Below the pieces are notes generated by a model. That model did no database searches. It had not been told where the DNA came from and worked only from the letters and a program-made list of their open reading frames with translations. DNA of 64,000 nt from Sedimentibacter hydroxybenzoicus DSM 7310 (GTDB lineage: Bacteria > Bacillota > Clostridia > Tissierellales > Sedimentibacteraceae), in the NCBI RefSeq assembly GCF_013403245.1, contig NZ_JACBNQ010000005.1, positions 1 to 64,000 of the forward strand, read 5' to 3'. A program made the position numbers and the translations under genes. Positions 6,627 through 64,000 of the stretch are shown one piece after another (positions within the stretch are counted from its first letter, which is position 1; each line of letters begins with the position of its first letter).

Positions 6627-6685
6627 TTGGTGCGGATGAGAGGAGTCGAACCCCCACGGTATCCCGCTAGATCCTAAGTCTAGTG
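6627..6685 (-). other. attL core: duplicated 3' part of tRNA-Leu
   Basis: 59 bases identical to 43007-43065, covering the tRNA from the anticodon stem-loop through the CCA end (CCA at 6628-6630). Sequence diverges exactly after TAGTG at 6685. This fragment lacks the 5' half and is not a functional tRNA. Confidence 0.95.
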
Positions 6686-6830: not shown

Positions 6831-7065
6831 TATGAAACCGTCAAAAGACATCAAGCAACCCGCTTTAAGCACTTTTGATAAATACAAGCATATAATATAA
6901 TTAGAGATGACAACTCTTAAACAGCCACCTCCTACGAACATACTTGAATCGTTATATGAGCTGGCTGGATAGGTAACACAATAACAGGGCAGTAAACGGT
7001 ACCTTTATGGTAGTCCGGCTGCCCTATTATTATAGCTTGTTTAGGTTATATTTAGTGATTATAAC
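6831..7065. other. Prophage left-end noncoding stretch with stem-loop
   Basis: No clear gene. A 21-codon micro-ORF (6907-6972, plus strand, weak RBS) and a stem-loop with arms AGGGCAG (6986-6992) and CTGCCCT (7019-7025) are visible. The stem-loop lies downstream of the HTH gene on the minus strand and may act as its terminator, though the T run is poor. Confidence 0.4.
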
Positions 7066-7245
7066 CTATGCTCGGCATAATTCATCTAAAGTGACATTCA
7101 GAGCATCGGCTAATTTAATAGCCGTAGATACTTTACAATCGTCATTGCGTTCAATGTTTTCAATCGTTCTTATAGGCACTTTTGATTTTCTAAATAGGTC
7201 AGGTACAGTCAGGTCCTGCTGCAACCGTATTTTTCTAAGATTCAT
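7066..7245 (-). CDS. Small XRE-family HTH regulator at the prophage end
   Basis: A 59-aa protein that is essentially one helix-turn-helix domain: MNLRKIRLQQDLTVPDLFRKSKVPIRTIENIERNDD...TAIKLADALNVTLDELC is a textbook XRE/Cro fold. I prefer the ATG at 7245 (AGG eight bases upstream) to the GTG at 7254. It lacks any dimerisation or peptidase domain. It lies downstream of the 7527-7802 gene on the same strand, the position often held by anti-CRISPR-associated (Aca) regulators. That link is inference. A half-site (GTGGTA) of the 7838-7854 operator occurs upstream, on the minus strand at about 7279-7284. Confidence 0.85.
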   Translation of the reverse strand: MNLRKIRLQQDLTVPDLFRKSKVPIRTIENIERNDDCKVSTAIKLADALNVTLDELCRA

Positions 7246-7312
7246 TGCATTCACCTTTTATTTTATATTCGTTTTCGTACCACTATTTTTTAATCCTTAT
7301 TAGATTTTTAAA

Positions 7313-7342
7313 TTACGTTCTATCGTTATTTTTGAGATTCAT
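7313..7342 (-). CDS. Possible micro-ORF with strong RBS
   Basis: AAGGAG (7348-7353) is placed 5 bases before an ATG that opens 9 codons (MNLKNNDRT) and a TAA. Such a strong site before so short a frame is unusual. It lies opposite and upstream of the crRNA-like unit, and its 3' end overlaps the 12-base match to the unit's spacer (7315-7326). It could be a leader peptide for the HTH gene, a CreT-like mini-ORF, or chance. Confidence 0.28.
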   Translation of the reverse strand: MNLKNNDRT

Positions 7343-7363
7343 TTCTTCTCCTTGAAAAAATTC

Positions 7364-7392
7364 TTGACATTAAATAATTTATAATCTAAAAT
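7364..7392 (+). promoter_or_regulatory. Promoter of the CRISPR-like RNA unit
   Basis: TTGACA (7364-7369), 17-bp spacer, TAAAAT (7387-7392). Transcription would start near 7399, just at the first repeat, with no room for a leader or coding region. Confidence 0.8.
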
Positions 7393-7401
7393 AAAACCAT
7401 A

Positions 7402-7501
7402 AGCACATAGATTACCTATAAGGAATTGAAATATGTTCTATCGTGTGTGCTTGATTGTACAAACATGATTAAACTTTAGATTACCTATAAGGAAGCAAGC
7501 T
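7402..7501 (+). CRISPR. Single-spacer CRISPR-like unit (repeat-spacer-repeat), orphan
   Basis: Two copies of TAGATTACCTATAAGGAA (7408-7425 and 7477-7494) are 69 bases apart. The first continues as TTGAAAT, the 3' end typical of clostridial type I-B repeats (ACCTATAAGGAATTGAAAC/T). With a 30-base repeat (7403-7432 and 7472-7501) the spacer is about 39 bases, normal for I-B. CCTATAAGG gives the small stem-loop expected for Cas6 recognition. Repeat 1 diverges only at its 5' end and repeat 2 only at its 3' end, parts absent from a mature crRNA. Own promoter and terminator flank the unit. No cas genes are in the window, so processing would rely on host Cas6. Confidence 0.72.
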
Positions 7502-7521
7502 GGGATAATACCCAGCTTTTT
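7497..7521 (+). terminator. Intrinsic terminator of the CRISPR-like RNA unit
   Basis: AAGCTGGG (7497-7504) and CCCAGCTT (7511-7518) pair and run into TTTTT. It overlaps the end of repeat 2, so the predicted transcript is only about 120 bases. Confidence 0.85.
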
Positions 7522-7526
7522 GCATT

Positions 7527-7802
7527 TTATAATTTCTCAAAATAAGGATTTTCAAAGAAAAATGCATTTCTTGCTTTCAATTTTTTAAGCTTTTCGACAT
7601 GAGATAATGCTATCTCAAGTATTTTTTCTTTTGTATCCCAAGAAACGTCAATATCTTCAGAGTTTGTAGTTTTAAAAAACGTTCCAAACTTGCCATTTTC
7701 ATAAACAACATTTTCACCGCCCGATAATTGCATCAAGTATCTTCCATCCTGCTTTAATTCTACTTTGTCAAATTCGTTTTTAATTATTTGCATCATTTTC
7801 AT
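7527..7802 (-). CDS. 91-aa orphan protein, prophage cargo region
   Basis: No family recognised. The protein is small, soluble, roughly charge-neutral, with a predicted beta-rich first half (YLMQLSGGENVVYENGKFGTFF) and a helical second half (EKILEIALSHVEKLKKLKARN) ending in an aromatic-rich tail. GGAG lies 6-7 bases before the ATG. It has its own perfect-consensus promoter with a palindrome in the spacer, so it is strongly expressed but repressible. It sits between lysis genes and attL, where phages carry accessory genes, beside a CRISPR-like RNA. An anti-CRISPR or superinfection role is only a hypothesis. Confidence 0.8.
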   Translation of the reverse strand: MKMMQIIKNEFDKVELKQDGRYLMQLSGGENVVYENGKFGTFFKTTNSEDIDVSWDTKEKILEIALSHVEKLKKLKARNAFFFENPYFEKL

Positions 7803-7831
7803 TTTTTTCTCCTTTTTTTATTTTATAATTC

Positions 7832-7860
7832 ATTATACCACCTTTTAAGGTGGTTGTCAA
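7832..7860 (-). promoter_or_regulatory. Perfect consensus promoter with palindromic operator in the spacer
   Basis: On the minus strand TTGACA (7855-7860) and TATAAT (7832-7837) are separated by exactly 17 bases (7838-7854). These are filled by the palindrome ACCACCTT-AA-AAGGTGGT, whose last T overlaps the -10 box. A dimeric repressor bound here would block RNA polymerase. Confidence 0.87.
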
Positions 7861-7941
7861 TACTTTTTTATAATTATTTTAAAATATTTTTTGTTGAAAT
7901 TTAAACACTTATAGGCATTGCAAGAAAAAAGTTCAAAAAAT

Positions 7942-7970
7942 AAAAAAATCCCGGGCATTACACCCGGGAA
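7942..7970 (-). terminator. Terminator of the late/lysis operon
   Basis: Minus strand TCCCGGG (7963-7969) and CCCGGGA (7949-7955) form a GC-rich stem followed by seven T. It lies 77 bases after the endolysin stop. Confidence 0.88.
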
Positions 7971-8046
7971 GTGCTAAGTTGCTATGTCAACAAAATTAAC
8001 CATGTCATATCCTTATTGTATGCTTGTACGATAAATGTGTTACAAA

Positions 8047-8646
8047 TTACTTCATAGCTGCAGCTAACTTCAATAAAAGCGGTTCACTATACTTGTAGAA
8101 AAGCAGATATTGTATAGTATTTTCATCAATGCCTGTCTTTTCTTGTATTATATTTATAGCTTCTTGTACTGTCATTTCCTTTACAAAATAACCTGCAGGA
8201 TTCACGCACATTATATATTGACCTGCATAAGTGCCTTTAGTCCAGAAATGCGGATGACTATACAAGCAATTTCTAACTTCGAAGTGCAGATGTGCTGCTG
8301 TGCTTGTCCCCGTATTGCCCATGTGAGCAACGATATCGCCCGCCTTGACTGTTTGTCCTACCTTCAATTCCAAACTTGCCAGATGGGCGTATAATGTGCA
8401 GTATCCCTCATGTTCTATAACTATGTAATATCCATATCCGACATTCTTATTTCCGCTATCTGCCTTACTTACCTTTACAATACCATCATCCACGGCATAT
8501 AAAGCATCTCCCTCAACTCCGGGAGTTATTGCTCCAAAATCTATACCCGAATGAAATTGAAGTCCGGCAAAATCTCTCTTGCCGAACTCTGATGTGATTC
8601 TTTGATTTTTGGTTGGATTATGTTTAAACTTTATCACCGTCACCAC
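8047..8646 (-). CDS. Phage endolysin, M23 metallopeptidase
   Basis: LytM-type M23 fold. HSGIDFG supplies the first zinc ligands (His, Asp), and AHLHFEVRN supplies the HxH pair. A C-terminal tail of about 50 residues (VQEAINIIQEKTGIDENTIQ...) does not match a wall-binding domain I know. M23 enzymes cut peptide cross-bridges in peptidoglycan. The protein starts with GTG inside the end of the holin gene (23-base overlap) and lacks a signal peptide, fitting holin-dependent release. The start codon is uncertain because three GTG codons lie close together. Confidence 0.88.
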   Translation of the reverse strand: MVTVIKFKHNPTKNQRITSEFGKRDFAGLQFHSGIDFGAITPGVEGDALYAVDDGIVKVSKADSGNKNVGYGYYIVIEHEGYCTLYAHLASLELKVGQTVKAGDIVAHMGNTGTSTAAHLHFEVRNCLYSHPHFWTKGTYAGQYIMCVNPAGYFVKEMTVQEAINIIQEKTGIDENTIQYLLFYKYSEPLLLKLAAAMK

Positions 8647-9118
8647 CGCCTACAATTGCATCTCCTGCATTGTCAATTTTATCCTTAGCTATACCCAGAA
8701 CTTTAATCAAGAATGTAGGAAGTTCTATTCCTGCGTGTTGCAAGTTTTCAGCATTAGATATAATTTCTCTTACAAGTATATATGCCATAACGAGAGCCGT
8801 TACTAATATTTTAGCTACTATGTTAATCCCTAATACAGAAGCTAATATTAATAGTGCTTTATCTACCATTAAAGCAAGCATAATCAATAAACACAAACCA
8901 ACTTTTTTATATAAACCTTTCATAACTTTTTTGCTTTCTGGACGTTCATCAGGACGAACACACGCAGCATATATTCTTGTTATTAGGTCTGCGAACATTG
9001 CAATTAGTGTTATTATTAAAAGAGGTGTAAGAGCTCCGAATATATTTGCTAAAAAAGCATATATAATAGCTATTACACCTACTATTGATATTTTAATCTC
9101 ATTAAATTTCTCTCCCAT
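8624..9118 (-). CDS. Phage holin (TcdE/holin 4 family-like)
   Basis: 164 residues with hydrophobic segments at about 11-30, 31-45, 78-95 and 98-117, a charged loop and a charged C-terminus. It matches the Bhl/TcdE-like holin family, which makes membrane lesions that release the endolysin. The start overlaps the preceding stop by 1 base and the end overlaps the endolysin gene, a classic lysis cassette. Confidence 0.85.
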   Translation of the reverse strand: MGEKFNEIKISIVGVIAIIYAFLANIFGALTPLLIITLIAMFADLITRIYAACVRPDERPESKKVMKGLYKKVGLCLLIMLALMVDKALLILASVLGINIVAKILVTALVMAYILVREIISNAENLQHAGIELPTFLIKVLGIAKDKIDNAGDAIVGGGDGDKV

Positions 9119-10101
9119 TATACTCTCCCTTCAATCTCTTGCATAATTTTTTCATAAATTCGTCTTGTTGTTGCAGCTTCTTCTGCTCTTGTAACAGGCT
9201 TTTGCGGTTCAAATGTATCATCTCCGTCCCCTTGCATCAAGCCATTTTCTACACAAAATTTAACATCATCATAGAACCAATCTGATTCATTTACATCAGT
9301 AAAATTTAATGTAGCGGGTTTATCTGGCATGGTATCAGTTCCTCCTTTCCTTAGAGTTTCTAAAATCTCTAATTTCTCCGTTAATGGCAGCACGGGTATT
9401 CCCCAACCTGTACGCTCGTCCCATCCATCAACATCCATATTATAAGTTATAGATTTGAATACTTCTCTCAACTCGGCTTGATTCATATCACCGTATCTTT
9501 GACAAAGCAATATAGAAAGACTTAAGAGTGCTGGAGATGCTGAACTTGTGCCATTGCCTGTACCCATAGTGCACATAAAATCTAATTCTTCTCCAATACC
9601 ACTATAATATACGCGTGATACTTTCCCCTTTTCGTCTATAACAGCTGCACCAACAGCTATTGCTGTATCATACCTATTCCAATCTTTGCGTACACTTTCT
9701 GCATCATTCCCAGCAGCCGAAAAAAAGAACACTCCATAACGTTCTTGCAATTCTTTGTAGTAGTCCATAGTTGTCTTGTCAAATGATGCAGAGTGTGAAG
9801 ACGTAAAGGCTTTAATATTAAGCCTTGTAATAGCTTCCTCCAGTGGTATGTACTCTCCTTGATAATTTATATGTCTATTTCTGCCAGAGCCGCCAATAAT
9901 ACTATTTATAACTCTACACTCAGGAATAAAATCATTTATCACTCCTGTTGTCATCGCTCCATGGTCATCCTTGCCAGGATAGTTTTCCGCGTTTACGACT
10001 GTGAAGCCTTGTCCCTTATACCCAAGCTCATGGTACTTGTCCACATTTAAAAATGCAAACTGTCGAGACAATATCATTTTGTTGTATTCTTTAGCATCCA
10101 T
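9118..10101 (-). CDS. Subtilase (S8)-like protein with C-terminal SLH domain
   Basis: 327 residues. Subtilase hallmarks are His47 (DDHGAMTTGV), oxyanion Asn132 (FFFSAAGND) and Ser186 in GTSSASP. The usual catalytic Asp (V-I-D-T-G) reads VVNAEN, so Asn37 replaces it, and the Asp-His spacing is only about 10 residues instead of about 30. After a linker, residues 267-320 form one S-layer homology domain (FTDVNESDWFYDDVKFCVENGLMQGDG). There is no signal peptide. It lies between tail genes and the holin. It may be a virion or lysis-released protein acting on the host S-layer, or a degenerate non-proteolytic fold. Confidence 0.85.
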   Translation of the reverse strand: MDAKEYNKMILSRQFAFLNVDKYHELGYKGQGFTVVNAENYPGKDDHGAMTTGVINDFIPECRVINSIIGGSGRNRHINYQGEYIPLEEAITRLNIKAFTSSHSASFDKTTMDYYKELQERYGVFFFSAAGNDAESVRKDWNRYDTAIAVGAAVIDEKGKVSRVYYSGIGEELDFMCTMGTGNGTSSASPALLSLSILLCQRYGDMNQAELREVFKSITYNMDVDGWDERTGWGIPVLPLTEKLEILETLRKGGTDTMPDKPATLNFTDVNESDWFYDDVKFCVENGLMQGDGDDTFEPQKPVTRAEEAATTRRIYEKIMQEIEGRV

Positions 10102-10584: not shown

Positions 10585-11910
10585 TTAAATAACATCAACT
10601 GCATATTCTTTGACAGATACATCTCCCTTTATCGCTATGTATACACGATTTCCGGATTTTCTCATGTAAATTTCTTGGTAAGAAAGACTTTGATTCGAGG
10701 TAGTAAGAGACATCCGTATATAAGATGGAATGCTTGAAGAACCTTCATATGTTCCAACTACAATTACAGTATCGGAAACATAACTAATATCTAAAAATAT
10801 GAAATGCTTACCGTAAGATGCACCTGTATCTGTACATATAATTATTCTTTTATAAGGATTTGCTACAATATCAAAATTTACGATATCTGTTATTGGAGCA
10901 TTGATAGGCAAATTTCCCGTTACTCTTAGTGGTGCAGGGTTTTTGCTATCAATCTTTTCGTTAACGTTTTTAATCGCTAGGGGAGTTGCTGCTATTCCTC
11001 CACTTACTCCGCTTGCGTTGTTAGTGGCATCACTTAGTTTTACGTGCCCATAGTTCGCTGCTGTTCCCACACCGTACGATGTGCCTGTCGATGCATGGTT
11101 CGTAGGCGCTTTGCTGTTAAGCTGTGTCTGTATTGCAGATGTAACTCCCTTTACAAAATTAAGCTCTGCTATAGTAGCTGTTAAACCGTTTAAGGTAATT
11201 GCCTTTCCTACTGCTGTTGTTCCGCTGATTATATTTTTAAATTTCTTTAAGATTTTTCCGAACATTACGGATAACTTTTCACCGCTTGCAATGTCTGCTT
11301 CGATGGCTGCTTCTGTGAATGTTACTGTTATGTCTTTGCCTTCTCCTGTTTTTTCTAATTTGTTAGGTAGGACAATGTCTATAGCGTCTATTCTATCACT
11401 TAACAGATTAACGTTACCTGCTATTAGCGAATCAACTATACCGCAGTAGTCGGAATTGTTTCTTAAATCCGTTATATTTGCATGTATGATGCTTGTGGCG
11501 CCTGCGTTTATATAGACATCAGCTAATGCTAATTCGTAAGAGTCCGAATCTCGTTGAATGTCAGGAGCTACCGGAGAGCTTGAGAATGTACCTTTTTTTA
11601 CTTCAAGCCGTATTTCCCTGTCTATTACATCATATCTTGCTACTATTCTGTCTATCCTGTTTAAGGTTCCGTCTGCATTTTCTATAGTTAATATATAGTT
11701 ATCATCATTTACAAGAAAATAACCGTTAATCCACGCTTTGCCCACTTGGACTGCAACAGTCATATCGTTGTTTGCAATTACCTTTAAGCTATTTTCGGGC
11801 TCCGGAAATATCCCATTGCCTATGAAACTGCCGAAGTATTCTGCGAATCTTGCAGCGTCATATTTTCTGTCCCCGCCTATGCTGTTAAAGAATCCGCTTT
11901 TTACTGTCAT
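10585..11910 (-). CDS. Phage tail fibre / upper baseplate protein
   Basis: 441 residues. The N-terminal 130 residues (KSGFFNSIGGDRKYDAARFAEYF...VGKAWINGYF) are typical of Firmicutes baseplate or fibre attachment proteins. The middle has tail-fibre repeats (NYGHVKLSDATNNASGVSGG). The C-terminal about 120 residues are beta-rich and probably bind the receptor. It sets host range. It overlaps the upstream tail protein gene by 4 bases. Confidence 0.82.
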   Translation of the reverse strand: MTVKSGFFNSIGGDRKYDAARFAEYFGSFIGNGIFPEPENSLKVIANNDMTVAVQVGKAWINGYFLVNDDNYILTIENADGTLNRIDRIVARYDVIDREIRLEVKKGTFSSSPVAPDIQRDSDSYELALADVYINAGATSIIHANITDLRNNSDYCGIVDSLIAGNVNLLSDRIDAIDIVLPNKLEKTGEGKDITVTFTEAAIEADIASGEKLSVMFGKILKKFKNIISGTTAVGKAITLNGLTATIAELNFVKGVTSAIQTQLNSKAPTNHASTGTSYGVGTAANYGHVKLSDATNNASGVSGGIAATPLAIKNVNEKIDSKNPAPLRVTGNLPINAPITDIVNFDIVANPYKRIIICTDTGASYGKHFIFLDISYVSDTVIVVGTYEGSSSIPSYIRMSLTTSNQSLSYQEIYMRKSGNRVYIAIKGDVSVKEYAVDVI

Positions 11911-12986
11911 CTTATCACCTTCTTTATTTTTTCTATCAGAGTTGGAATATCATTTCCGAATGTTATATTTATTTTGAAACCATCACTTTCATATACTTCT
12001 TCAATTTCAGTAATTCTTGTATTAATTGTAATTCCCCACTTTTTAGAAACACATGTTACAATGTCGCCCAAGTCAAAATTAACTTTGTAAGTTAAGTTGC
12101 TGAGAACATTTACTTTGCTGTTAAATGTCTGTATTATACTATTTTCTGAAAGCTTTTCATTTCCTCTCTGCTGGAGCTGCGATGTGTAATCTTCTGTGCT
12201 CATTTCCCCCTGCTGCAGATCCCTTGCATCAACGAACAATTCAAATCTGTCAACTCCGATTCCGGAGCCGACCGTTGTCAATACCCTTTCTGTCCCCTCT
12301 CCCTCACCGGCAATCAGAGCTATGTTCTTGTAGTCGTTTATGCTGTCTGTGTATTCCTGCTCGAGGACGTTTTCAAATTCCTTGCTAAAAATTGCCCGCG
12401 GATTGTCACTTTGCCCGGCTGTCCTGTTAAGTCCTTCGTATATATCAAATACAATTCTTCTGTTTTGCACGTCAATGGGTGTCCGGATTCCTAATTCATT
12501 TATACTTGCTTTTTCCTCTATTGTGCTGAGCAAATTTGAATAACTTACTTGAAAATTAGCTGACTGTGTAAATCCTTTCAACTCTCCCAACTGCAGCAGG
12601 TCAATTTTTCTGCTTGTATCAGCTGGGCTGATACAATTGTTATTAATCAAATTCCGTATTGCAAGCTCAATTGTTCCATTGAGGTTTTCTGTTCCCCAAA
12701 TTATGCGTCGCCCCAAATATCCGGTTATAAATCTTCCTCTTACGGCTAAAACTTCTCTGCCTTCAACATTTTCAGTCAGTTTACGGTATTCAATATATCC
12801 GGCTTCGCGGTCATCTTTTTTATGAATTATATTGCCTTTTCTGAGCAAATTTAAGTTTTCTGCGGTAATCGGTAAATGCAGTTCAAAATCACCGCACCGG
12901 GAATACCGCCGGCGCCATATGAAACTATCAAATGCATCAACCAATCCCTGAAAATCTAACTCTTTGTTAAAAACATAAAGCTCCAT
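11907..12986 (-). CDS. Tail protein, ReqiPepy6 Gp37-like (tail-associated lysin/hub)
   Basis: 359 residues starting MELYVFNKELDFQGLVDAFDSFIWRRRYSRCGDFELHLP, the signature of the siphovirus ReqiPepy6 Gp37-like family. It follows the distal tail protein directly (1-base gap), where the Tal/hub protein of Gram-positive siphophages is encoded. It closes the tail tube and contacts the fibre. I see no separate peptidoglycan hydrolase domain. Confidence 0.83.
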   Translation of the reverse strand: MELYVFNKELDFQGLVDAFDSFIWRRRYSRCGDFELHLPITAENLNLLRKGNIIHKKDDREAGYIEYRKLTENVEGREVLAVRGRFITGYLGRRIIWGTENLNGTIELAIRNLINNNCISPADTSRKIDLLQLGELKGFTQSANFQVSYSNLLSTIEEKASINELGIRTPIDVQNRRIVFDIYEGLNRTAGQSDNPRAIFSKEFENVLEQEYTDSINDYKNIALIAGEGEGTERVLTTVGSGIGVDRFELFVDARDLQQGEMSTEDYTSQLQQRGNEKLSENSIIQTFNSKVNVLSNLTYKVNFDLGDIVTCVSKKWGITINTRITEIEEVYESDGFKINITFGNDIPTLIEKIKKVIR

Positions 12987-13884: not shown

Positions 13885-16800
13885 TTAGAACCCTAATGCC
13901 AATTCTTGCTGTGCCTTTTTAGCTTGTCGTGCTACCTCAGAAGGACTCGACACAGGAACGTATATATTTTGAACTATATTTACATCATTTGATTTTTGCG
14001 AATCATTATTAGTGGTCTTCATATTATTTGTACGGGTATCTGTCTCTAACTCTTTTCTGTATATTTCTTGTGCGATACCAACATCTACGTTTTCTCTTCG
14101 TGATATAGCATCTATTTCGGATTTGTTCATCGAATAGAAATCGTATTTTTGAGATGCAGAGCTTGAACCGCTACTACTGCCTATCCCTGCATTGCCTCCA
14201 CTGCCTGAATAGCTCGTTTCAAATGTTTTCTTTTCAGGTGTCCAACTGCTCCACCAGCTCTTTAACTTATCCCACCATGTTAATATATTACCGGTTGATA
14301 TATCTACTTCGTTTTCAAGATCACTATGCATTTCCTTAATTCTGTTCAATGCTTCGGTGTGAGTGTTTTCGGCTTCTTTGATAATACCATCACGTTGCCT
14401 TTGCGCTTCTTTTATCAAATCATCTGCTTGTTCTGCGCTTATTACTTTAGCTTCGTCACGCATTTTAATAATTGTTGCTAATCTCTCCTCGTACTCTTCA
14501 TTGGCAGCCGTGACAGCTCCATCTTTCTGTCTGATTAATTCGGTTATGTGAGCTGATGCTTGTTCAGCTGTTATTCTGCCGTCATACTCCTTCATGCGCT
14601 CCAAGATTATTTTAGCTTCTATTTCATTATCCGAAAGAGTTTTAATCGCCTGCGTCTTCATTAATTCTTGTAATCTATTTATTTCATTAACTTCGTCAAT
14701 CTGCAGCTCTCTTCTTTCCCTTGACGCTCTGTCAATCATTTCATTTATGCCATCTTGATAAATCTGTGTGTCACTATTTAATTTATTGTAATATTCGTTT
14801 GTTTTGAATATTAAATCTGCTTGTTCTAATTCGGTTATATCCTTAGAGTTTTTAAAGAAATTCTCCAAGCTGGCTATATTTTCAGCTCTTTTTTGTTCTG
14901 TGCCTACGTTAATTTGTGTAGCCATTTCATCGTATTTAGCAACTAATTCGTTTTTCATATCCTCGGTTATGGTTGTCGAATTAATATAAATACTATCCAA
15001 ATGACTTTTTACGCCCTCGTCAAGTTCTAAATAAGAACCTACTGCTTCTTTTGTAGATTCAGATATTTTAGTTGTAGTTGTTTCCACGGCTGTATTTATT
15101 CGCCCGTAATTTTCTTCTGTCGATATTGCTGCATATTCGATTTTATCTGCAAACAAATCAACTTCCGGAATCACTTCGGTATCTAATGCTTTTTTAATGC
15201 CTACTCCCGCCGCAACTACTCCCGCAGCTGCCAATGCAAATGGAGCTACCGCTGCCGCTGCTGTTCCTAATCCAGCTGTTAAAGCGCCCATTCCACCAAT
15301 ACCACCTGCGGTTGCTGCTGCTGTCCCTATTCCTGCCGTAGCCGTTGTAGCAGTACCTAATAACCCCGCTAATGTACCTACTCCTTTGGTTATTCCGCCT
15401 ATTGTGGATATTGCACCGCCACCAACTTTTAGAATCCCACCAATCGCTGCTGCAAACCCTACCATTTTAGCAGTATTTTCTAAGGTTTCTTTGTCAAGAT
15501 TTCCTAACCAATCAGCAAATTCACCGACTTTATCAATTCCTTTTTCCATGTAAGGAATAAGAACTTCACTTAATTTCAATCCTGCTTCAACAAATTGATT
15601 TTTAAGCATTGATAATTCGGATGCAGTTGTTTCATAACGCTGCGCTGCTTCGTTGCTAAGAGCTGTGTTTTCTTCCCATGCCTTAGTGCCGATTTCCAAC
15701 GATGACGTAAATACATCACTTGCACCACTTGCCCTTAACAAGGCATCTCTCATTCTAATTTCAGTGATGCCCATGTCATCAAGAACTTTGATTGCAGATG
15801 CACCTTGCTCTTCTGCGTTTGACAGACCTTTTATAAATTCTGTTATTGCGCCTGCGGCATCATCTTTGAATGCTCTTGAAAATTCTTCCCCTGTCATCCC
15901 CGCGACGCTCGCAAAGTCTACTAATTTCTCAGAATTAGTTTCGACTGCTAACTGCATTTCAATCATCGTTTTGCTAAATGCACTGCCGCCTGCTTCTGCT
16001 TCAATTCCTACAGAACTTAAAGCGCCCGCAAAAGACATTATTTCAGCTTCAGTTAATCCTATTTGACTTCCTGCACCAGCAAGCCTCTTTCCCATATTTA
16101 CTATGTCCGCTTCCGTGGTTGCAAGATTATTTCCTAAATCAACTATAGTCGAACCCAGTTTGTCAAAATCTTCTTGACTCATCTGAGTTATGTTTGCAAA
16201 TTGAGCTAAAGCTGTAGCAGCATCATTGGCGCTTAAATTAGTAGCTTCCCCTAAGTCAATCATTACCCTTGAAAACTCTAAGATGTTTTCAGTCTGAATA
16301 CCTAATTGTCCTGCCGCTTCTGCTACTCCTGCTATAGCCGTAGCACTTGCCGGTATATCTTTAGTCATACCTCTTATACCAGCCTCTAATCGTTTAAATT
16401 CTTCATCCGTAGCATCAACAGTTTTCTTAACTCCTGCGAATGCTGATTCAAAGTCAATACCGGCTTTTAAACTTGCAGCACCTACCGCAACAAGGGGAGC
16501 TGTAGCCTTTAATATACCTTCCCCGGCTTTCTCCATGCCTTTACCGATATTTTGCAATCTATCTCCATGCTCTTTAAGTACTTCGCTTGCCTGTAACCAT
16601 TTGTTATTTGATTTGTCAAGTTCGGCATTGATCTTGTTTAATTCGCCCTGAGCTATAGTCATTTGTGCATTAGCTTTGTTCATATTTGTTTCATAATTCT
16701 GAATTTGCTTGGCGTTCGTTTCTATGGCTTTTTCTTTTTTAGAGTATTCGGCGGTAAGTTTTTCAACTTCTGACTTTGCGTTTTTAGCTTGGTCGGATTC

Positions 16801-17148
16801 TTTTCCGTAAAGTTTAACAGCTTCATCATAAGCTTTATTTGCATTATCTAAACTACTTTTTAACTTGTCCCGGATGGAGATGTTCTCATTCATCTTTGTA
16901 GATGTTTGTTCCATGCTCTGTTTGTATGTATCTACTTTCTTAGCATGTAGTTCTACTTGCTTTGCTAATGCTTCCTGAACCGATTTAAGTTTTTCGCTGT
17001 CCTTGCCGAATACACCTAATTCTGTACTTGCATTTTTAAATTCTGATTGTGCATTCCTTAGTTCTGCGTTTATGCCTTTTATAGAGTTATTAAACCCTGA
17101 GCTATCAAGGACAAATTTAGCGGTTACTAATTGGTCTACTACTGACAC
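13885..17148 (-). CDS. Tape measure protein
   Basis: 1087 residues. Residues 1-200 are coiled coil, followed by the phage TP901-type domain (SLKAGIDFESAFAGVKKTVDAT, TNLSANDAATALAQFANITQMS). A Gly/Ala-rich hydrophobic stretch lies at about 560-660 and long helices beyond. At roughly 0.15 nm per residue the tail would be about 160 nm. GTG start, seven bases after GGAGG. It is immediately downstream of the frameshifted chaperone gene. Confidence 0.95.
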   Translation of the reverse strand: MSVVDQLVTAKFVLDSSGFNNSIKGINAELRNAQSEFKNASTELGVFGKDSEKLKSVQEALAKQVELHAKKVDTYKQSMEQTSTKMNENISIRDKLKSSLDNANKAYDEAVKLYGKESDQAKNAKSEVEKLTAEYSKKEKAIETNAKQIQNYETNMNKANAQMTIAQGELNKINAELDKSNNKWLQASEVLKEHGDRLQNIGKGMEKAGEGILKATAPLVAVGAASLKAGIDFESAFAGVKKTVDATDEEFKRLEAGIRGMTKDIPASATAIAGVAEAAGQLGIQTENILEFSRVMIDLGEATNLSANDAATALAQFANITQMSQEDFDKLGSTIVDLGNNLATTEADIVNMGKRLAGAGSQIGLTEAEIMSFAGALSSVGIEAEAGGSAFSKTMIEMQLAVETNSEKLVDFASVAGMTGEEFSRAFKDDAAGAITEFIKGLSNAEEQGASAIKVLDDMGITEIRMRDALLRASGASDVFTSSLEIGTKAWEENTALSNEAAQRYETTASELSMLKNQFVEAGLKLSEVLIPYMEKGIDKVGEFADWLGNLDKETLENTAKMVGFAAAIGGILKVGGGAISTIGGITKGVGTLAGLLGTATTATAGIGTAAATAGGIGGMGALTAGLGTAAAAVAPFALAAAGVVAAGVGIKKALDTEVIPEVDLFADKIEYAAISTEENYGRINTAVETTTTKISESTKEAVGSYLELDEGVKSHLDSIYINSTTITEDMKNELVAKYDEMATQINVGTEQKRAENIASLENFFKNSKDITELEQADLIFKTNEYYNKLNSDTQIYQDGINEMIDRASRERRELQIDEVNEINRLQELMKTQAIKTLSDNEIEAKIILERMKEYDGRITAEQASAHITELIRQKDGAVTAANEEYEERLATIIKMRDEAKVISAEQADDLIKEAQRQRDGIIKEAENTHTEALNRIKEMHSDLENEVDISTGNILTWWDKLKSWWSSWTPEKKTFETSYSGSGGNAGIGSSSGSSSASQKYDFYSMNKSEIDAISRRENVDVGIAQEIYRKELETDTRTNNMKTTNNDSQKSNDVNIVQNIYVPVSSPSEVARQAKKAQQELALGF

Positions 17149-22994: not shown

Positions 22995-24638
22995 CTAATA
23001 AGTATAGACATCTAAAAACAAGCCTTCTCCCATTTCTATAAGCTCTTCATCTGCGCTCATGCAATGTAAAAAACAGAAAAAGCCATCAGTTTTTCTCTTG
23101 ATTGGCTCTATCTTTAGATAACTCTTATTTCCTTTTTTATCTGTGTCAACATATACATTATTACAAAACCACCGCATTAATTTATCATCACCAAATATCA
23201 AATCGCCATTAGCAAATAGTTGTGTTATTAACGGATGTAATTTTGTGTGAGTAATGTATCCGTTCGGTATTCCCTGTAACTCCAAGCCTTTAGCATCAAA
23301 AACTTCTTTTAATGCAGAATATCTATGTCTATCTGCCACTACTTTTTTAATAACATACCATTCGGCTTGTTCTTCAAACCAATTATATACAATATCAGCG
23401 GAAATAACAGGAATTCCTTTAACTATAGTAGCAAGCCCTAAGTTAACCGCCTCTTGAATATCTATGTTAAACTTTGTGAATTGTAAGCTCTTTTCATGTA
23501 TAAACGTGTGCTGTTTAAATATTCTCTTACCATTCTTTTTGAATAACAATCCTACAGAGCACCAGTCTTTTAAATCAGCAAAATCAACTCCGCCTATGCA
23601 CTCTAAACCGACTAAATCCGGTACAGGTTGATTAGTTGCTTTTATTTCTTGCCACTCCGCAACGGCTTTAGCTTCATCCTGTGTAGGTAAATTCATTCTC
23701 TTAGTTAGGAATGCTACCTTTAACTCAGAATTACTTTGCATTGCAATATATTGTTTCATAACAGTTCTTTTTAATGTTCTGTCGTGGTTGATACGAGGAT
23801 TTGCTTTTTCCCACAAATCCGGATTATCAACTTCCCCTAAACTGTCCATCTTGAATATAAAAGGGAAAAATCCATTGTGAGGATCTTCGCCTAATAATAT
23901 TCTTTTGGCTCTTTCTTTTAAATCATCAAGAACCGACTCTCTGACCTCTCCATCAGTTGTTAAGTAAAATATTCTCGGTTTATCTACTTTACCTAAACCG
24001 CCAATGAAAACATTTATATTATCATAATTTTCGTATTGGTGAACTTCGTCGAATATTATTGCTCCGGGTCTACCGCCGTCTTTTGTCTTAGCGTTAGATG
24101 TCCTGTATCGCAAAGTTGAATTTGTTTTTTTATAAGTTATTTCCTCTTTTGTCTTGTCGAAAAGTCTTTTTAATTTTTGACTATCATCAATAACCTGATC
24201 CACTTCCTCAAAAGAAGTTTTAGCTTGATCTTCAGATGTGGCAACAATATCAATGTCATAATTTTTTATACCATGCTTATCGCTTTGCAGATAAAAACAT
24301 ATACATGATATTAAGCCATTCTTGCCTCCGCCCCTACCCATGTAGTCAAAGTATTCATCAAATACTAAATCGCCGGTATCTTTATAAAAAACACCATCCA
24401 CAAACGAAAAAAAGAATTTCTGAAAATCAAGTAATTTAAAAGGGAAGTAATCCTCTACTACTCTAACTGATTCATAAATTCTTTCACTATCTATGTATAT
24501 GTTATCATCATCGAGTACTTTTCTGACAAAACTCATTAACAACTTTTGTTCTTCGCATGAATGAACTTTACCGCTTTCAACTAAATTCATCCATGTGTCT
24601 ATGTATTCATGATACTTATAATTCTTCATCCTCCTCAA
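22995..24638 (-). CDS. Terminase large subunit
   Basis: 547 residues. ATPase domain: DYMGRGGGKNGLISCI (Walker A variant) and IIFDEVHQYENYDN (Walker B). Nuclease domain: GVDFADLKDWCSVG with later acidic residues. It packages DNA into proheads and cuts it. It overlaps the small subunit by 23 bases. Either the TTG at 24638 or the ATG at 24629 may be the start, both having unusually close GG-rich sites. Confidence 0.95.
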   Translation of the reverse strand: MRRMKNYKYHEYIDTWMNLVESGKVHSCEEQKLLMSFVRKVLDDDNIYIDSERIYESVRVVEDYFPFKLLDFQKFFFSFVDGVFYKDTGDLVFDEYFDYMGRGGGKNGLISCICFYLQSDKHGIKNYDIDIVATSEDQAKTSFEEVDQVIDDSQKLKRLFDKTKEEITYKKTNSTLRYRTSNAKTKDGGRPGAIIFDEVHQYENYDNINVFIGGLGKVDKPRIFYLTTDGEVRESVLDDLKERAKRILLGEDPHNGFFPFIFKMDSLGEVDNPDLWEKANPRINHDRTLKRTVMKQYIAMQSNSELKVAFLTKRMNLPTQDEAKAVAEWQEIKATNQPVPDLVGLECIGGVDFADLKDWCSVGLLFKKNGKRIFKQHTFIHEKSLQFTKFNIDIQEAVNLGLATIVKGIPVISADIVYNWFEEQAEWYVIKKVVADRHRYSALKEVFDAKGLELQGIPNGYITHTKLHPLITQLFANGDLIFGDDKLMRWFCNNVYVDTDKKGNKSYLKIEPIKRKTDGFFCFLHCMSADEELIEMGEGLFLDVYTY

Positions 24639-35309: not shown

Positions 35310-35852
35310 TCACCTGCCCCACCGTTCTTTAAGTTGCTCTATCTCTTTAGGTGTCATAGTGTTTATTCCTAATTCTTTAGCTTGTGTTATTATTTCATCT
35401 AAAAGCAAACTCATTTCTTTTGTATCGTATGTGCTACTTCCGTAATAATTTATTATGGTTGTGTAACCCTCTAATTTACTGTCTCGCATAATTTCGGATT
35501 GCCAACCTAAACCTTTACTTTCCCATACCTCAATCCAACGTTCTACAGCGTCGTTTCGTATAGGTGTTATCTCAAATGGACCTACCTGTCTAACAGCTTG
35601 TTTGTATACAAATTCCTTTGTATTCCCTATTACCTCTGATATCTTCTGACAAAGTACGAAACAATAAGCATTAGCATCCAACGACCGCTTTTTCTTTTTA
35701 TGGTCTATCTTGCACACCTTTAACTTTTCATCACTCAGCAATTGATTTAACGGCTCCATGTTACCTTGTTCTTCCTTGGGGACTATCAATGTAACATGAT
35801 AATCCCCTGTAAAATCTCTTGTTATACTTCCTGACTTAACTGTTACTTCCAT
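35310..35852 (-). CDS. NinB-like recombination protein
   Basis: 180 residues from ATG 35852 (AGGTG upstream). The segment KKKRSLDANAYCFVLCQKISEVIGNTKEFVYKQAVRQVG matches the RSLDxNA core of NinB-like phage recombination proteins (ssDNA-binding, lambda Orf functional group). It sits directly between an HNH-type protein and the replisome organizer. Family assignment is moderate. Confidence 0.65.
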   Translation of the reverse strand: MEVTVKSGSITRDFTGDYHVTLIVPKEEQGNMEPLNQLLSDEKLKVCKIDHKKKKRSLDANAYCFVLCQKISEVIGNTKEFVYKQAVRQVGPFEITPIRNDAVERWIEVWESKGLGWQSEIMRDSKLEGYTTIINYYGSSTYDTKEMSLLLDEIITQAKELGINTMTPKEIEQLKERWGR

Positions 35853-35856
35853 AGCA

Positions 35857-36141
35857 TCACCTGTAATTTTTTCCAAACAGCTTCATAAACTCTTCAAAGG
35901 AAAAGTTCTTTTCAAATTCTATCTGTGCAAGTTGCTTGATCCGAATGTCTAACTCTTTGTTATGATGCACTCCATTAGGTCCGGTATGACAATTCATACA
36001 AAGAGGAACTTTCATACCATGCTTTTCTGACTGTTTTCTATTTGCAGTCCCGAAGAATACATGATGCTCTTGTAGATTTTGAGTAGTACCGCATATAAAG
36101 CAATGCTCCCAATCAGTTGTCACTATACTATTCCGTTTCAT
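35857..36141 (-). CDS. HNH-like putative nuclease/recombination protein
   Basis: 94 residues with HCFICGTTQNLQEHHVFFG and VPLCMNCHTGPNGVHHN: a CxxC pair, HH core and CxxCH, a treble-clef HNH layout. Such proteins lie beside ERF/NinB in phage recombination modules. Start chosen at ATG 36141 because GGTG is spaced 7 bases upstream. An ATG at 36153 is also in frame. Confidence 0.75.
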   Translation of the reverse strand: MKRNSIVTTDWEHCFICGTTQNLQEHHVFFGTANRKQSEKHGMKVPLCMNCHTGPNGVHHNKELDIRIKQLAQIEFEKNFSFEEFMKLFGKNYR

Positions 36142-36727: not shown

Positions 36728-36953
36728 AGTATTTGCCTATCCTTTCTTCTTTTTCGCTTTTCTCACGTTCTAAATACCTTTGGTGTATTTCTAATTCCTC
36801 GATGGAATATTTAATTATCTCTTCAAAGCTATCATTTACAATGTCTTGTAGTCTGAATATAGCTGTCTGAACATTATTAATATCCTCTTCTAGTTGGTCT
36901 CTTTCTTCTTCTAAATCATCAATGTTTATTGATATAAACTCGTTGTATGTCAT
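36711..36953 (-). CDS. Coiled-coil phage protein (80 aa)
   Basis: Strongly helical and acidic: INIDDLEEERDQLEEDINNVQTAIFRLQDIV. Short proteins of this sort precede ERF or RecT genes and may be structural or regulatory partners. No family recognised. ATGA overlap with the upstream gene. Confidence 0.68.
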   Translation of the reverse strand: MTYNEFISINIDDLEEERDQLEEDINNVQTAIFRLQDIVNDSFEEIIKYSIEELEIHQRYLEREKSEKEERIGKYYEHLQ

Positions 36954-37837
36954 TGTTCATCACACGCCACAAACTTATTATTTTTCAACATGTAGAATGT
37001 GTTTTCTTTTATCTTCTTGCCGTCTATTCTTTTGGTCTGAACATTAACACGATGCCATTTTCCATGCTCGTCCTGTTCCCACTCAGCTAAGGTTAACCAG
37101 CAACCTTTTGCGCCCTTTGCCTTACCCTTTCTTCCAAGTGCAATAGCACAACCTTCAGCTAATTTCTTACCTTCTTTGATTTCCGCACTTCCACAATCCC
37201 CGATGGCGGTTGCTACAGCCCAATCACCCTCGGCTTGTGCTCCTGCTCGGTATCCTGTGGCTTGTGCTCCTGCTCGGTCTCCTGTGGCTTGTGCTCCTGC
37301 TTGGTATCCTGTGGCTTGTGCTCCTGCTTGGTATCCTGTGGCTTGTGCTCCTGCTCGGTCTCCTGTGGCTTGTGCTCCTGCTTGGTATCCTGTGGCTTGT
37401 GCTCCTGCTTGGTATCCTGTGGCTTGTGCTCCTGCTTGGTCTCCTGTGGCTTGTGCTCCTGCTTGGTATCCTGTGGCTTGTGCTCCTGCTCGGTCTCCTG
37501 TGGTGCTATTTTCTTTTTTCCAATCCACTCTATCTAAAATAAACTTTACGCCAGCTTCTATGATTCCTTTTAAGCCTATCTCTACGCCTACACGAATTTT
37601 AGATACCGCTACCTTGCTATCTCTGCCATCCCTATCAACATCTCCATCTCCTTCAACTTCGCAATATCTACTGTCCGATGGAGGATAATATTCAAACACA
37701 TTTAGAGGATCTTCGCAAAAGTGGAATCCTTTGCTACAAGCTTTTATATTTCCTTCTTGTTCGTATTCCTTGCCTACTTCGTACTTAAAGCCTCTGCATT
37801 TTAAATCTTTATCGAACCCCTTATATCCTTTTATCAT
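36950..37837 (-). CDS. DUF7666-like phage protein with ten 9-residue repeats
   Basis: 295 residues. The N-terminus (YKGFDKDLKCRGFKYEVGKEYEQEG...ACSKGFHFCEDPLNVFEYYPP) resembles the DUF7666 phage family. Residues about 114-203 are ten copies of AGAQATG(Y/D)(Q/R), followed by a decayed set (AGAQAEGDWAVATAIG) and a globular tail (KKLAEGCAIALGRKGKAKGAKGCWLTLAEWE). Such Gly/Ala repeats probably form a beta-roll or helix. The role is unknown. Located in the early region, so not a tail fibre. Confidence 0.75.
   Translation of the reverse strand: MIKGYKGFDKDLKCRGFKYEVGKEYEQEGNIKACSKGFHFCEDPLNVFEYYPPSDSRYCEVEGDGDVDRDGRDSKVAVSKIRVGVEIGLKGIIEAGVKFILDRVDWKKENSTTGDRAGAQATGYQAGAQATGDQAGAQATGYQAGAQATGYQAGAQATGDRAGAQATGYQAGAQATGYQAGAQATGDRAGAQATGYRAGAQAEGDWAVATAIGDCGSAEIKEGKKLAEGCAIALGRKGKAKGAKGCWLTLAEWEQDEHGKWHRVNVQTKRIDGKKIKENTFYMLKNNKFVACDEQ
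37228..37497. repeat. Ten 27-bp tandem repeats
   Basis: Units CTCCTGCTCGGTATCCTG + TGGCTTGTG (27 bp) differ only in a few bases that switch Y/D and Q/R in the protein. Because 27 is a multiple of 3, the opposite strand also stays open in three frames, creating false ORFs. Confidence 0.97.
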
Positions 37838-41884: not shown

Positions 41885-42934
41885 ATGGCTAGTGTGCGAA
41901 AGATGAAAAATGGTAAATTTCAAGCTACCGTTTATATAGGCAGGGATTCAGACGGAAAGCAATTACGCAAATATATAACGGCTGACACAGAAAGAGAGTG
42001 CAAGGCAAAAGCTAGGAAATTGGAGACGGAGATAGACGAGGGTGTATTTGTAAATATAGAAAATAAAAAGGTCGGTAAGTATCTTGACGAATGGTTGGAG
42101 TTGCAAAAGAACTCTATAGCTCCCTCTACTTACTTATTATATAAAGGGTATATAAGAGCTCATTACAAGCCGGCTTTTGGTGATATAAAAATGTCAAAAT
42201 TAAATGAACTACACATTCAGAAATTTAAAAATGACAAATTACAAGAGTTAGCGGTTAATACAGTTAGAAAGCTTTTATTTGTTCTTCGTAAAGCCTTGCA
42301 AGACGGAATGAAGAACAAAAATCCTGCTCGAGACATAGAAGTCCCGCAAAAAGAAAAAACTCGTTTTAGGCTTTTAACCGATGATGAGTTTAATATTATT
42401 CATAAAGAAGCTAAAAAGAATATATTTGATGAATGTATAATACTTTTAGCCGCATGGGGTGGATTGAGACGCGGTGAAATATTTGCATTAAAACCTAATG
42501 ATTTATATTTGAAAGATAACTTTATTAGAGTTGATGAAGCTAGGTCAATATCTGAAAATGGGTATATTGATAAGGACCCTAAATCTGAAAACGGTTTTAG
42601 AGATGTTGTTATCCCTAAATACTTATCGGATTTATTGAGCCGATATATAAAACAAAAAGGTGAGATACCTGATAGATTATTTGATGTTCGTCCAGACCAC
42701 TACACTCATAGATTTGCTACCCTCAAAGACCGCACATCTTTAAAAGGCGAAGATATGGTTTTCCAAGATTTAAGACATTATCAGGCAAGTTGGTTGTATA
42801 AAAACGGAATGCCTGACCAGTATTCAGCCGAAAGATTAGGGCACGATATTATAACAATGAAAAAAATATACCAGCACTTAGATAAGTCTATAAAGATTGA
42901 AAACGACAAGAAAGTTATTGAAATGTTTAAGTAA
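41885..42934 (+). CDS. int: Prophage tyrosine integrase
   Basis: 349 residues: an AP2-like arm-binding domain (1-60), SAM-like core-binding domain (62-150, KVGKYLDEWLELQKNSIAPSTY), and catalytic domain with GGLRRGEIFAL (Arg), FQDLRHYQA (Arg-His box, the usual first His read as Gln), ERLGHD and nucleophile Tyr in KKIYQHL. It catalyses insertion at and excision from the tRNA-Leu gene. It is cotranscribed with the repressor and lies next to attR and arm sites. Confidence 0.96.
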   Translation: MASVRKMKNGKFQATVYIGRDSDGKQLRKYITADTERECKAKARKLETEIDEGVFVNIENKKVGKYLDEWLELQKNSIAPSTYLLYKGYIRAHYKPAFGDIKMSKLNELHIQKFKNDKLQELAVNTVRKLLFVLRKALQDGMKNKNPARDIEVPQKEKTRFRLLTDDEFNIIHKEAKKNIFDECIILLAAWGGLRRGEIFALKPNDLYLKDNFIRVDEARSISENGYIDKDPKSENGFRDVVIPKYLSDLLSRYIKQKGEIPDRLFDVRPDHYTHRFATLKDRTSLKGEDMVFQDLRHYQASWLYKNGMPDQYSAERLGHDIITMKKIYQHLDKSIKIENDKKVIEMFK

Positions 42935-43006: not shown

Positions 43007-43065
43007 TTGGTGCGGATGAGAGGAGTCGAACCCCCACGGTATCCCGCTAGATCCTAAGTCTAGTG
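43007..43065 (-). other. attR core within tRNA-Leu
   Basis: 59-bp copy identical to 6627-6685. It supplies the 3' part of the intact tRNA. Divergence begins after TAGTG at 43065, inside the anticodon stem region. Confidence 0.95.
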
Positions 43066-43090
43066 CGTCTGCCAATTCCGCCACATCCGC
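43008..43090 (-). tRNA. tRNA-Leu(UAG)
   Basis: Acceptor arms GCGGATG and CATCCGC pair. The anticodon loop CTTAGGA gives anticodon UAG (CUA codon). A long variable arm marks a type II tRNA, the T-arm GGGGGTTCGACTCC is present, and CCA is encoded. The gene is rebuilt at the right prophage junction with its 3' half supplied by the element. Confidence 0.97.
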
Positions 43091-63877: not shown

Positions 63878-64000
63878 GGGGACATTCCTTATACTCCAAA
63901 GACTATTCCTTCTATTGGGGACATTCCTTATACTTCAAAGACTATCCCTATACTAAAGGTGTGTCCCCATTCATATTAAGGTGTGTGTCCCCCTTCCTCT
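63878..64000. repeat. Tandem 39-bp and GTGTGTCCCC repeats at the right edge
   Basis: GGGGACATTCCTTATACT occurs at 63878 and again at 63917 (39-bp period, with CAAAGACTAT following both). Then AAGGTGTGTCCCC and AAGGTGTGTGTCCCCC appear, which can pair with GGGGACATTCCTT. This looks like a second REP-like palindromic family; the block continues beyond the window. Confidence 0.7.

Follow-up and report, generated by a model that had tools for sequence, protein, structure and literature searches.

At positions 7364-7521 of the window (the whole 64-kb stretch of DNA that was analyzed), a prophage carries a single-spacer CRISPR that has a promoter and a terminator of its own. It is almost certainly a CRISPR mini-array of the host's own type, and its guide is related to a cas-leader RNA of the host. 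CreRs, cas-regulating RNAs that arise from host mini-CRISPRs, were reportedly described by Liu et al. in Cell Host Microbe in 2023. On balance, we think that the prophage element is a phage-borne mimic of a CreR that would guide host Cascade to the cas promoter and act as an RNA-guided transcriptional anti-CRISPR.

The first-pass annotation of this DNA had called the unit prophage-borne, and this was confirmed by a 59-bp att duplication together with an integrase gene. The prophage is 36 kb long and is delimited by a 59-bp exact direct repeat at a tRNA-Leu gene, with the guide-RNA unit 0.7 kb inside attL. In addition to the integrase, it encodes a C1-type repressor with an S24 peptidase, a Rha protein, a terminase, a tape measure protein, a holin and an M23 endolysin. 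The unit lies in the end zone that extends from the lysis genes to attL, flanked by an HTH gene and a 91-aa ORF. Landmarks in window coordinates were as follows.

6627-6685, no strand: attL, 59-bp duplicate of the tRNA-Leu end
7066-7254, minus strand: small HTH (Cro/C1-type) gene, neighbor of the unit
7527-7802, minus strand: 91-aa ORF with no family assigned, neighbor of the unit
41885-42934: integrase
43007-43065, no strand: attR, overlapping the tRNA-Leu gene at 43008-43090

At the limits used, searches of PHROGs, Pfam and PADLOC gave no match for the 91-aa ORF, and no relatives of it turned up in IMG/VR or in 24 other genomes of the genus; it could be a further anti-defense candidate. Upstream of this ORF, at 7832-7860 on the minus strand, a perfect promoter (12/12, with TG) was observed beside the palindrome CCACCTTTTAAGGTGG. 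Two other genes of the window drew attention. One, at 9118-10101, encodes a subtilase (Peptidase_S8) with an S-layer homology domain and adjoins the phage holin and endolysin genes, and the other, at 36950-37837, encodes a DUF7666 protein with approximately ten near-identical GAQATG-type repeats in its translation.

The unit had also been read as a self-contained RNA gene, and each of the expected parts (promoter, repeat, spacer, repeat and terminator) is present.

7364-7392, plus strand: promoter TTGACA-17-TAAAAT, 11 of 12 consensus bases
7403-7432, plus strand: repeat 1, GCACATAGATTACCTATAAGGAATTGAAAT, 4/30 differences from the array repeat (positions 2, 3, 4 and 18)
7425-7432, plus strand: predicted crRNA 5′ handle, ATTGAAAT, the last 8 nt of repeat 1
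7433-7471, plus strand: spacer (guide), 39 nt, taken directly from the sequence and assuming that repeat 2 starts at 7472
7433-7449, plus strand: 17-nt stretch homologous to the host CreR-like spacer, differing from it at guide positions 6 and 10 alone
7472-7494, plus strand: repeat 2, truncated past the expected Cas6 site, with 7477-7494 identical to part of repeat 1
7472-7493, plus strand: predicted 22-nt 3′ handle, within repeat 2
7425-7493, plus strand: predicted mature guide RNA of 69 nt (8 + 39 + 22), by analogy with CreA processing
7497-7521, plus strand: intrinsic terminator, stem AAGCTGGG/CCCAGCTT (8 bp, at 7497-7518) followed by T's

The exact 18-nt copies of TAGATTACCTATAAGGAA occur at 7408-7425 and 7477-7494. 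When positions 1-43100 of the window were dinucleotide-shuffled, an 18-mer direct repeat within 100 nt arose in 1 of 200 shuffles. The real 64-kb window has 167 such close repeat positions, 165 of which fall in the tandem-repeat gene at 36950-37837; the two outside that gene are the guide-RNA unit and position 63917. A scan of 7000-8100 returned as many promoter-like sites as expected (6 vs. 6.0), a count of no significance in itself, and 4 terminator-like sites (the hairpin of the unit being counted on both strands) against 0.4 expected. Judging from the promoter, transcription would start at about 7399, just 5′ of the repeat unit at 7403-7432. Over its first 22 positions, repeat 2 has 5 differences from the array repeat. 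Folded on its own, the array repeat performed better than repeat 1 of either the phage unit or the ectopic host unit described below, and none of the three folded clearly better than its own shuffles.

The host assembly (G000; 3.8 Mb, 71 contigs, 98.91% complete, 3.19% estimated contamination) contains a complete type I-B operon, cas6-cas8b-cas7-cas5-cas3-cas4-cas1-cas2, at C40:611-9128. The array repeat, GTTTATAGATTACCTATGAGGAATTGAAAT, is present in 171 copies on two contigs (27 on C40 and 144 on C39). Thus, both the type I-B cas operon and the matching arrays that the first-pass annotation had proposed looking for in the host were found, so that its main refuting condition, a host lacking such a repeat, did not apply, and its assignment of the repeat to the clostridial type I-B class agrees with the 4/30 differences that separate repeat 1 from the host's 171-copy repeat. 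Matches to Cas6 were detected in 5 of 25 genomes of the genus (own included; best other, 42% identical) and to Cas8b in 10 of 391 genomes of the class (own included), and a cas6 search of genome_contigs gave no match. The prophage (contig C45) and the cas operon (contig C40) are on separate contigs; we take them to share one cell on the strength of the assembly and of array spacers that match the prophage.

From the host arrays, 168 spacers of 34-39 nt were extracted. Four of them matched the prophage, two with 4 mismatches each, one with 5 and one with 8; among 168 shuffled spacers, none came closer than 9 mismatches.

16099-16134, minus strand: match of array spacer L010-_30, 32/36, first 14 nt perfect, 5′ flank TTA
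16927-16965, minus strand: match of array spacer L010-_130, 34/39, mismatch at position 3, 5′ flank TTA
35840-35875, plus strand: match of array spacer L010-_27, 32/36, first 23 nt perfect, 5′ flank TAA
8465-8499, minus strand: weaker match of array spacer L010-_56, 27/35, 5′ flank TTA

Since the 5′ flank was TTA at three of the four sites and TAA at one, the PAM is probably TTA, which a Parageobacillus I-B system likewise uses (PMC10551041, from excerpts of that paper). The matches suggest that the host lineage probably encountered this phage family earlier, and the array spacer with a TTA flank, 14 perfect seed bases and 32/36 identity might recognize the prophage. Two further observations concern the host spacers and repeats. 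Array spacer L010-_110 matches a terminator-like hairpin at 7941-7975 of the window, with 2 mismatches in the first 28 nt, 9 overall and no TTA flank. Another single-spacer CRISPR occurs at approximately C5:828-923 of the host assembly (locus L036), in which a 36-nt spacer separates one perfect repeat from a degenerate end repeat.

An ectopic repeat-spacer-degenerate repeat was found at C40:348-424 on the minus strand (locus L009), divergent from cas6, and no further gene was seen in the 186 nt that separate the two. Its 17-nt spacer, ATGTTATATTGTGTGTG (C40:378-394), matches C40:576-586 (minus strand) with bases 1-11, beside a TTA flank. The cas6 promoter upstream of this guide site is a perfect TTGACA-18-TATAAT at C40:529-558, which places the site, just 3′ of that promoter, in the inferred cas6 5′ UTR. 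The 17-nt spacer tracks the cas leader except for one missing base (ATGTTATATTG-TGTGTG vs. ATGTTATATTGATGTGTG). A candidate promoter for the ectopic unit, TTGACA-17-TAATTT, was read by eye and is absent from the promoter scan list. According to excerpts of PMC8501985, CreA guides repress through pairing of bases 1-5 and 7-11, leaving 6 and 12 free, and CreA processing leaves handles of 8 and 22 nt. Excerpts of PMC10551041 report that spacers of 26 nt or less lead to repression, not cleavage, in the Parageobacillus I-B system. The host spacer falls inside that range, its pairing fits the 1-5/7-11 rule, and its predicted mature RNA would be 47 nt long. With a seed match at 1-5 and 7-11 beside a PAM and a position next to cas, we infer that C40:348-424 is the host's CreR, for which cas repression itself is predicted.

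The prophage spacer begins with ATGTTCTATCGTGTGTG, in which 15 of 17 bases agree with the host CreR-like spacer and only bases 6 and 10 do not. In a comparison of 328,260 17-mer positions, which counted part of C45 twice because of overlapping loci and included 18 kb of another genome of the genus, at least 15 matches occurred only in the phage spacer and in the host unit itself; the best agreement of any of the 168 array spacers with the phage guide was 10/17. In the alignment, the base missing relative to the cas leader is also missing in the phage guide. Both ectopic units carry CCTATAAGG vs. CCTATGAGG in 171 of 171 array repeats, and exact occurrences of CCTATAAGGAATTG in the assembly number two, one in phage repeat 1 and one in the host CreR-like unit. 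Taken together, the shared guide, missing base and repeat change suggest that the two units are most simply related by descent, rather than each being derived independently from the cas leader. A 13-nt piece of the phage promoter, AAAATTCTTGACA, is also exactly present upstream of the host CreR-like gene, and the local score of the promoter block was equaled in 27 of 2000 shuffles. Because this block includes the -35 consensus, its homology is only suggestive, and the 13 nt common to both promoters may reflect no more than that consensus.

The phage unit is not simply this host's allele, since its repeat 1 is nearer to the array repeat than is the host's (4/30 vs. 9/30 differences) and the distal parts differ: the two repeats 1 agree at only 3 of their first 11 positions, and the spacers diverge beyond guide base 17. 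Better preservation of repeat 2 in the phage was considered and ruled out (5/22 differences vs. 4/22 in the host). That the guide stayed mostly unchanged while its surroundings changed suggests selection on the guide, and capture of a short piece by the phage is also possible. A short CreR fragment gained by recombination and carried along under no selection would fit the single occurrence of the element, the shortness of the conserved block (40 nt at 93%) and the two mismatches already present in the guide; however, a promoter and a terminator frame the unit, and a phage repeat closer to the array repeat than the host's own rules out a simple copy of this allele. We consider such a relic improbable.

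With a spacer that nearly copies a guide RNA of the host cas leader, the unit suggests a mechanism beyond the two raised in the first-pass annotation (attack on a rival element and occupation of the host complex), namely repression of cas transcription. At the cas 5′ UTR site (C40:576-589, minus strand), with its TTA flank, the phage guide fits at positions 1-5, 7-9 and 11. It thereby matches 9 of the 10 seed positions (1-5, 7-11); position 10 mismatches, being C in the guide and T at the site. The string TTAATGTTNTATNG, which combines TTA with the matched guide positions, has a single occurrence in the 3.8-Mb assembly, namely the cas site, vs. three for the reversed control, and TTA with the 8-position seed has one more occurrence in L039 (C45:60001-80000). 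When the cas upstream region (C40:401-611) was searched under the rule of TTA plus 1-5 and 7-9, the phage guide matched and none of the 168 array spacers did; with TTA dropped from the rule, 2 of the 168 matched. By gapped alignment, the whole phage spacer was not significantly similar to this region (428 of 2000 shuffles), scoring 26 where the ten best of 168 array spacers scored 26-30. In a post hoc comparison, 113 of 5000 shuffles were as similar to the cas promoter as the distal spacer is. No site in the assembly offers the phage guide all ten seed positions beside TTA. The string ATGTTNTATCG occurs seven times in the host's own genome, spacer included, never beside TTA, and one of the six sites outside the spacer has a TAA flank and lies inside an ORF on C1. 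In the Haloarcula CreA of H. hubeiense, changing any one of positions 1-5 or 7-11 cost approximately 10^4-fold in a transformation assay (excerpts of PMC8501985). As the mismatched position 10 is essential there, the phage guide may have little or no activity on this allele. The guide may thus be weak on this cas allele, tuned to that of a sister strain, or mainly a means of occupying Cascade.

Occupation of the host complex by the phage RNA is possible. As a Racr-like decoy, a CreR-derived RNA loaded by Cas6/Cas7 would fill Cascade as a non-targeting crRNA, and its guide sequence would be irrelevant. This would suit a near-consensus promoter, repeats that look processable and a guide with no well-paired target; the mismatch at position 10 fits lost targeting, and a non-targeting crRNA cut interference and allowed phage infection in a type I-F system (PMC10651486, in excerpt). 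A decoy would not, however, predict 15/17 identity to a cas-targeting guide in a unit whose distal spacer and 5′ part of repeat 1 differ from the host's, and the Racrs in those excerpts are solitary repeats, whereas the phage unit has a second repeat within 100 nt. We therefore regard a decoy as unlikely. Also to be weighed was an antitoxin RNA like those of CreTA and CrePA, repressing a phage toxin gene through Cascade. The scale and architecture of the unit are those of creA genes (PMC8501985, in excerpt), and the small ORF at 7527-7802, with no family assigned, adjoins it. Apart from the spacer itself, however, the window contains no ten-of-ten seed site, none of the seven nine-of-ten sites is upstream of 7527-7802, and no toxin promoter carrying a guide target was found in the window, which makes this explanation highly improbable.

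Relatives of the unit were sought with the pattern GGAATTGAAATATGTTNTAT, allowing 1 mismatch, and matches were obtained in 6 of 100 genomes (own included). The host's own genome had three, one of them an ordinary array spacer; in the other five genomes the matches stood alone, their loci lacking a second repeat of this kind, and four of these matches resembled one another like a coding stretch. Accordingly, no homolog of the unit was found in the 99 other relatives. The same pattern had 0 exact matches in IMG/VR, and its single match in genome_contigs came from a Desulfotomaculum MAG, where it is one ordinary spacer among the many of a long array. A superficial inspection of 14 loci from the Cas6/Cas8b searches and extensions of them with a simple repeat-end pattern, L040 being treated in more detail, revealed no second CreR. 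Relatives of the tail protein encoded at 11907-12986 were present in 9 of 61 genomes (own included), and the 17 IMG/VR loci encoding such a relative had at most isolated repeat-end matches. A repeat search of three of these 17 loci turned up a 27-nt pair 33 nt apart in L051, which was judged not to be CRISPR-like. The 171-nt region queried against INPHARED gave 29 records, none of which covered 80% of it.

Protospacer searches were conducted with the whole spacer and with parts of it. Using blastn, the whole spacer had no match in PLSDB at E 1 and hit 9 records in INPHARED at E 10 (best E, 0.6), and two 19-nt pieces of it had 0 exact matches in IMG/VR. A search of IMG/VR for TTA plus bases 1-5 and 7-15 gave 8 loci with identities of 17-24 of 39, among them L084 (IMGVR_UViG_3300013947_000034), an A+T-rich 85-kb viral contig in which TTA precedes bases 1-16 of the guide (24/39 overall). 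Within the prophage itself, the terminase large-subunit gene has TTTTA followed by a 14/17 guide match at 23774-23790 (plus strand), which was equaled by 8 of 2000 shuffled guides. A 10-nt exact guide match with no TTA lies at 7317-7326, upstream of the HTH gene at 7066-7254 (56 of 3000 shuffles). The guide letters C6 and C10, which differ from the host CreR, are matched at both sites.

The attack on a rival element proposed in the first-pass annotation was thus not borne out by a full-length protospacer in INPHARED or PLSDB (blastn) or in IMG/VR (short exact patterns only); what was found were weak partial matches in the prophage and on one IMG/VR contig. Nevertheless, the guide might send Cascade to related phages or to the phage's own prophage DNA. 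Published viral mini-arrays mostly hold spacers against related viruses (PMC11656645, in excerpt), and the two prophage sites, with their C6 and C10 letters, and the 16-base match in L084 would accord with such a role. Yet site 23774 is mismatched at seed position 8 and identical at only 17/39 positions overall, 6 of 168 array spacers also reach at least 14/17 in the prophage, and no TTA flanks the site in front of the HTH gene. In addition, L084 was picked out by a pattern that fixes 14 of its 16 bases, from among 8 matches of 17-24/39, and targeting would leave the identity with the host CreR unexplained. The matches at 23774, 7317-7326 and L084 are therefore weak, post hoc signals that keep self- or inter-phage targeting open as a distinctly improbable explanation.

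Virus-borne mini-CRISPR arrays were reportedly described by Medvedeva et al. in 2019. Like the arrays in excerpts of PMC11656645 and PMC8616872, the phage unit has one spacer between host-type repeats (4/30 differences), a promoter and no cas genes. Unlike these arrays, which target mainly related viruses (PMC11656645, in excerpt), it has a spacer that matches a host cas-regulating guide, and no related virus was matched in full. Excerpts of PMC8616872 also mention larger orphan arrays in viruses, whose spacers match genes or intergenic regions of the host and for which a regulatory role has been suggested; these are the nearest precedent in print that we found. Racrs, as excerpted from PMC10651486, resemble the phage unit in being phage-borne, with their own promoter and a host-like repeat, and in that it too could sequester Cas proteins. 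They differ in being solitary repeat units with no second repeat, whereas the phage unit has a spacer and a second repeat at 7477-7494. The SRUFinder pipeline of the Racr survey excludes arrays and mini-arrays, according to the same excerpts. The unit shares with the CreA of CreTA a repeat-spacer-repeat layout, two divergent repeats and the 1-5/7-11 seed rule (PMC8501985, in excerpt), and differs from it in that no toxin with a guide-matched promoter was found. An 11-nt PAM-side match that represses a cas promoter without cleavage is also known for tracr-L and Cas9 (Workman et al., 2021, as related in excerpts of PMC8616872); unlike the phage unit, tracr-L belongs to a type II system and is host-encoded.

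The closest likeness is to CreRs, which excerpts of PMC12737573, PMC13131331 and PMC12948488 describe solely as host genes. The prophage unit is a crRNA-like gene whose spacer is flanked by ectopic, degenerate CRISPR repeats, with a seed-limited match (9 of 10 seed positions) to the cas promoter beside a PAM and a guide 15/17 identical to this host's CreR-like unit. It differs from a CreR in its 39-nt spacer, in the seed mismatch at position 10, in that it would serve the phage, and in being carried by a prophage on another contig (C45 vs. C40) instead of beside the cas operon that it would regulate. Because it is not beside that operon, we class it as a CreR mimic and not as a member; it most likely works like a CreR, though its seed match is incomplete. 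Among the matches listed in a search of open-license PMC titles and abstract beginnings, none described a CreR encoded by a phage or a phage crRNA directed at a cas promoter. Set beside the CreRs, Racrs and viral mini-arrays already known, our findings suggest something new, a phage-borne CreR mimic whose guide is related to the host CreR.

If so, the prophage would transcribe a repeat-spacer-repeat RNA of approximately 120 nt, which host Cas6 would trim to the 69-nt guide for loading into host Cascade. The first 11 nt of the guide would steer Cascade to the cas6 5′ UTR at the TTA PAM, where it would cover the start of the cas transcript and block transcription of cas6-8b-7-5-3-4-1-2. Cleavage by Cas3 would not be expected at the cas site because pairing stops at about base 11, past the seed. 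The phage would thereby gain protection in a host whose arrays hold spacers resembling it. The sequence supports the anatomy of the unit, the shared repeat, the 15/17 guide identity, the cas site with its TTA flank and the prophage-matching array spacers; from these we infer transcription, processing, Cascade loading, cas repression and benefit to the phage. The 39-nt spacer, unlike the short host guide, and the single known example of the element speak against a mimic, as do the mismatch at position 10, a host CreR that is itself predicted from sequence, the guide's likeness to the two prophage sites and to L084, and the separation of cas operon and prophage on different contigs of an assembly with 3.19% estimated contamination. 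There is about an even chance that a temperate phage captured or imitated a host CRISPR autorepressor RNA as a guide-dependent transcriptional anti-CRISPR.

In excerpts of PMC12737573 and PMC12948488, CreR autorepression is presented as a host counter to Acr proteins, in which blocked Cascade leads to derepression of cas. A phage-supplied CreR would reverse this circuit, with more Cascade giving more repressor complex and no phage protein involved. CreR mimicry could also provide a function for phage mini-arrays that lack viral targets, a class set aside by the Racr survey. If our reading is correct, the element would belong to an anti-CRISPR class of its own, separate from Acr proteins, from Racr decoys and from mini-arrays that target rivals, and a virus may be wielding the host's own CRISPR off-switch against it.
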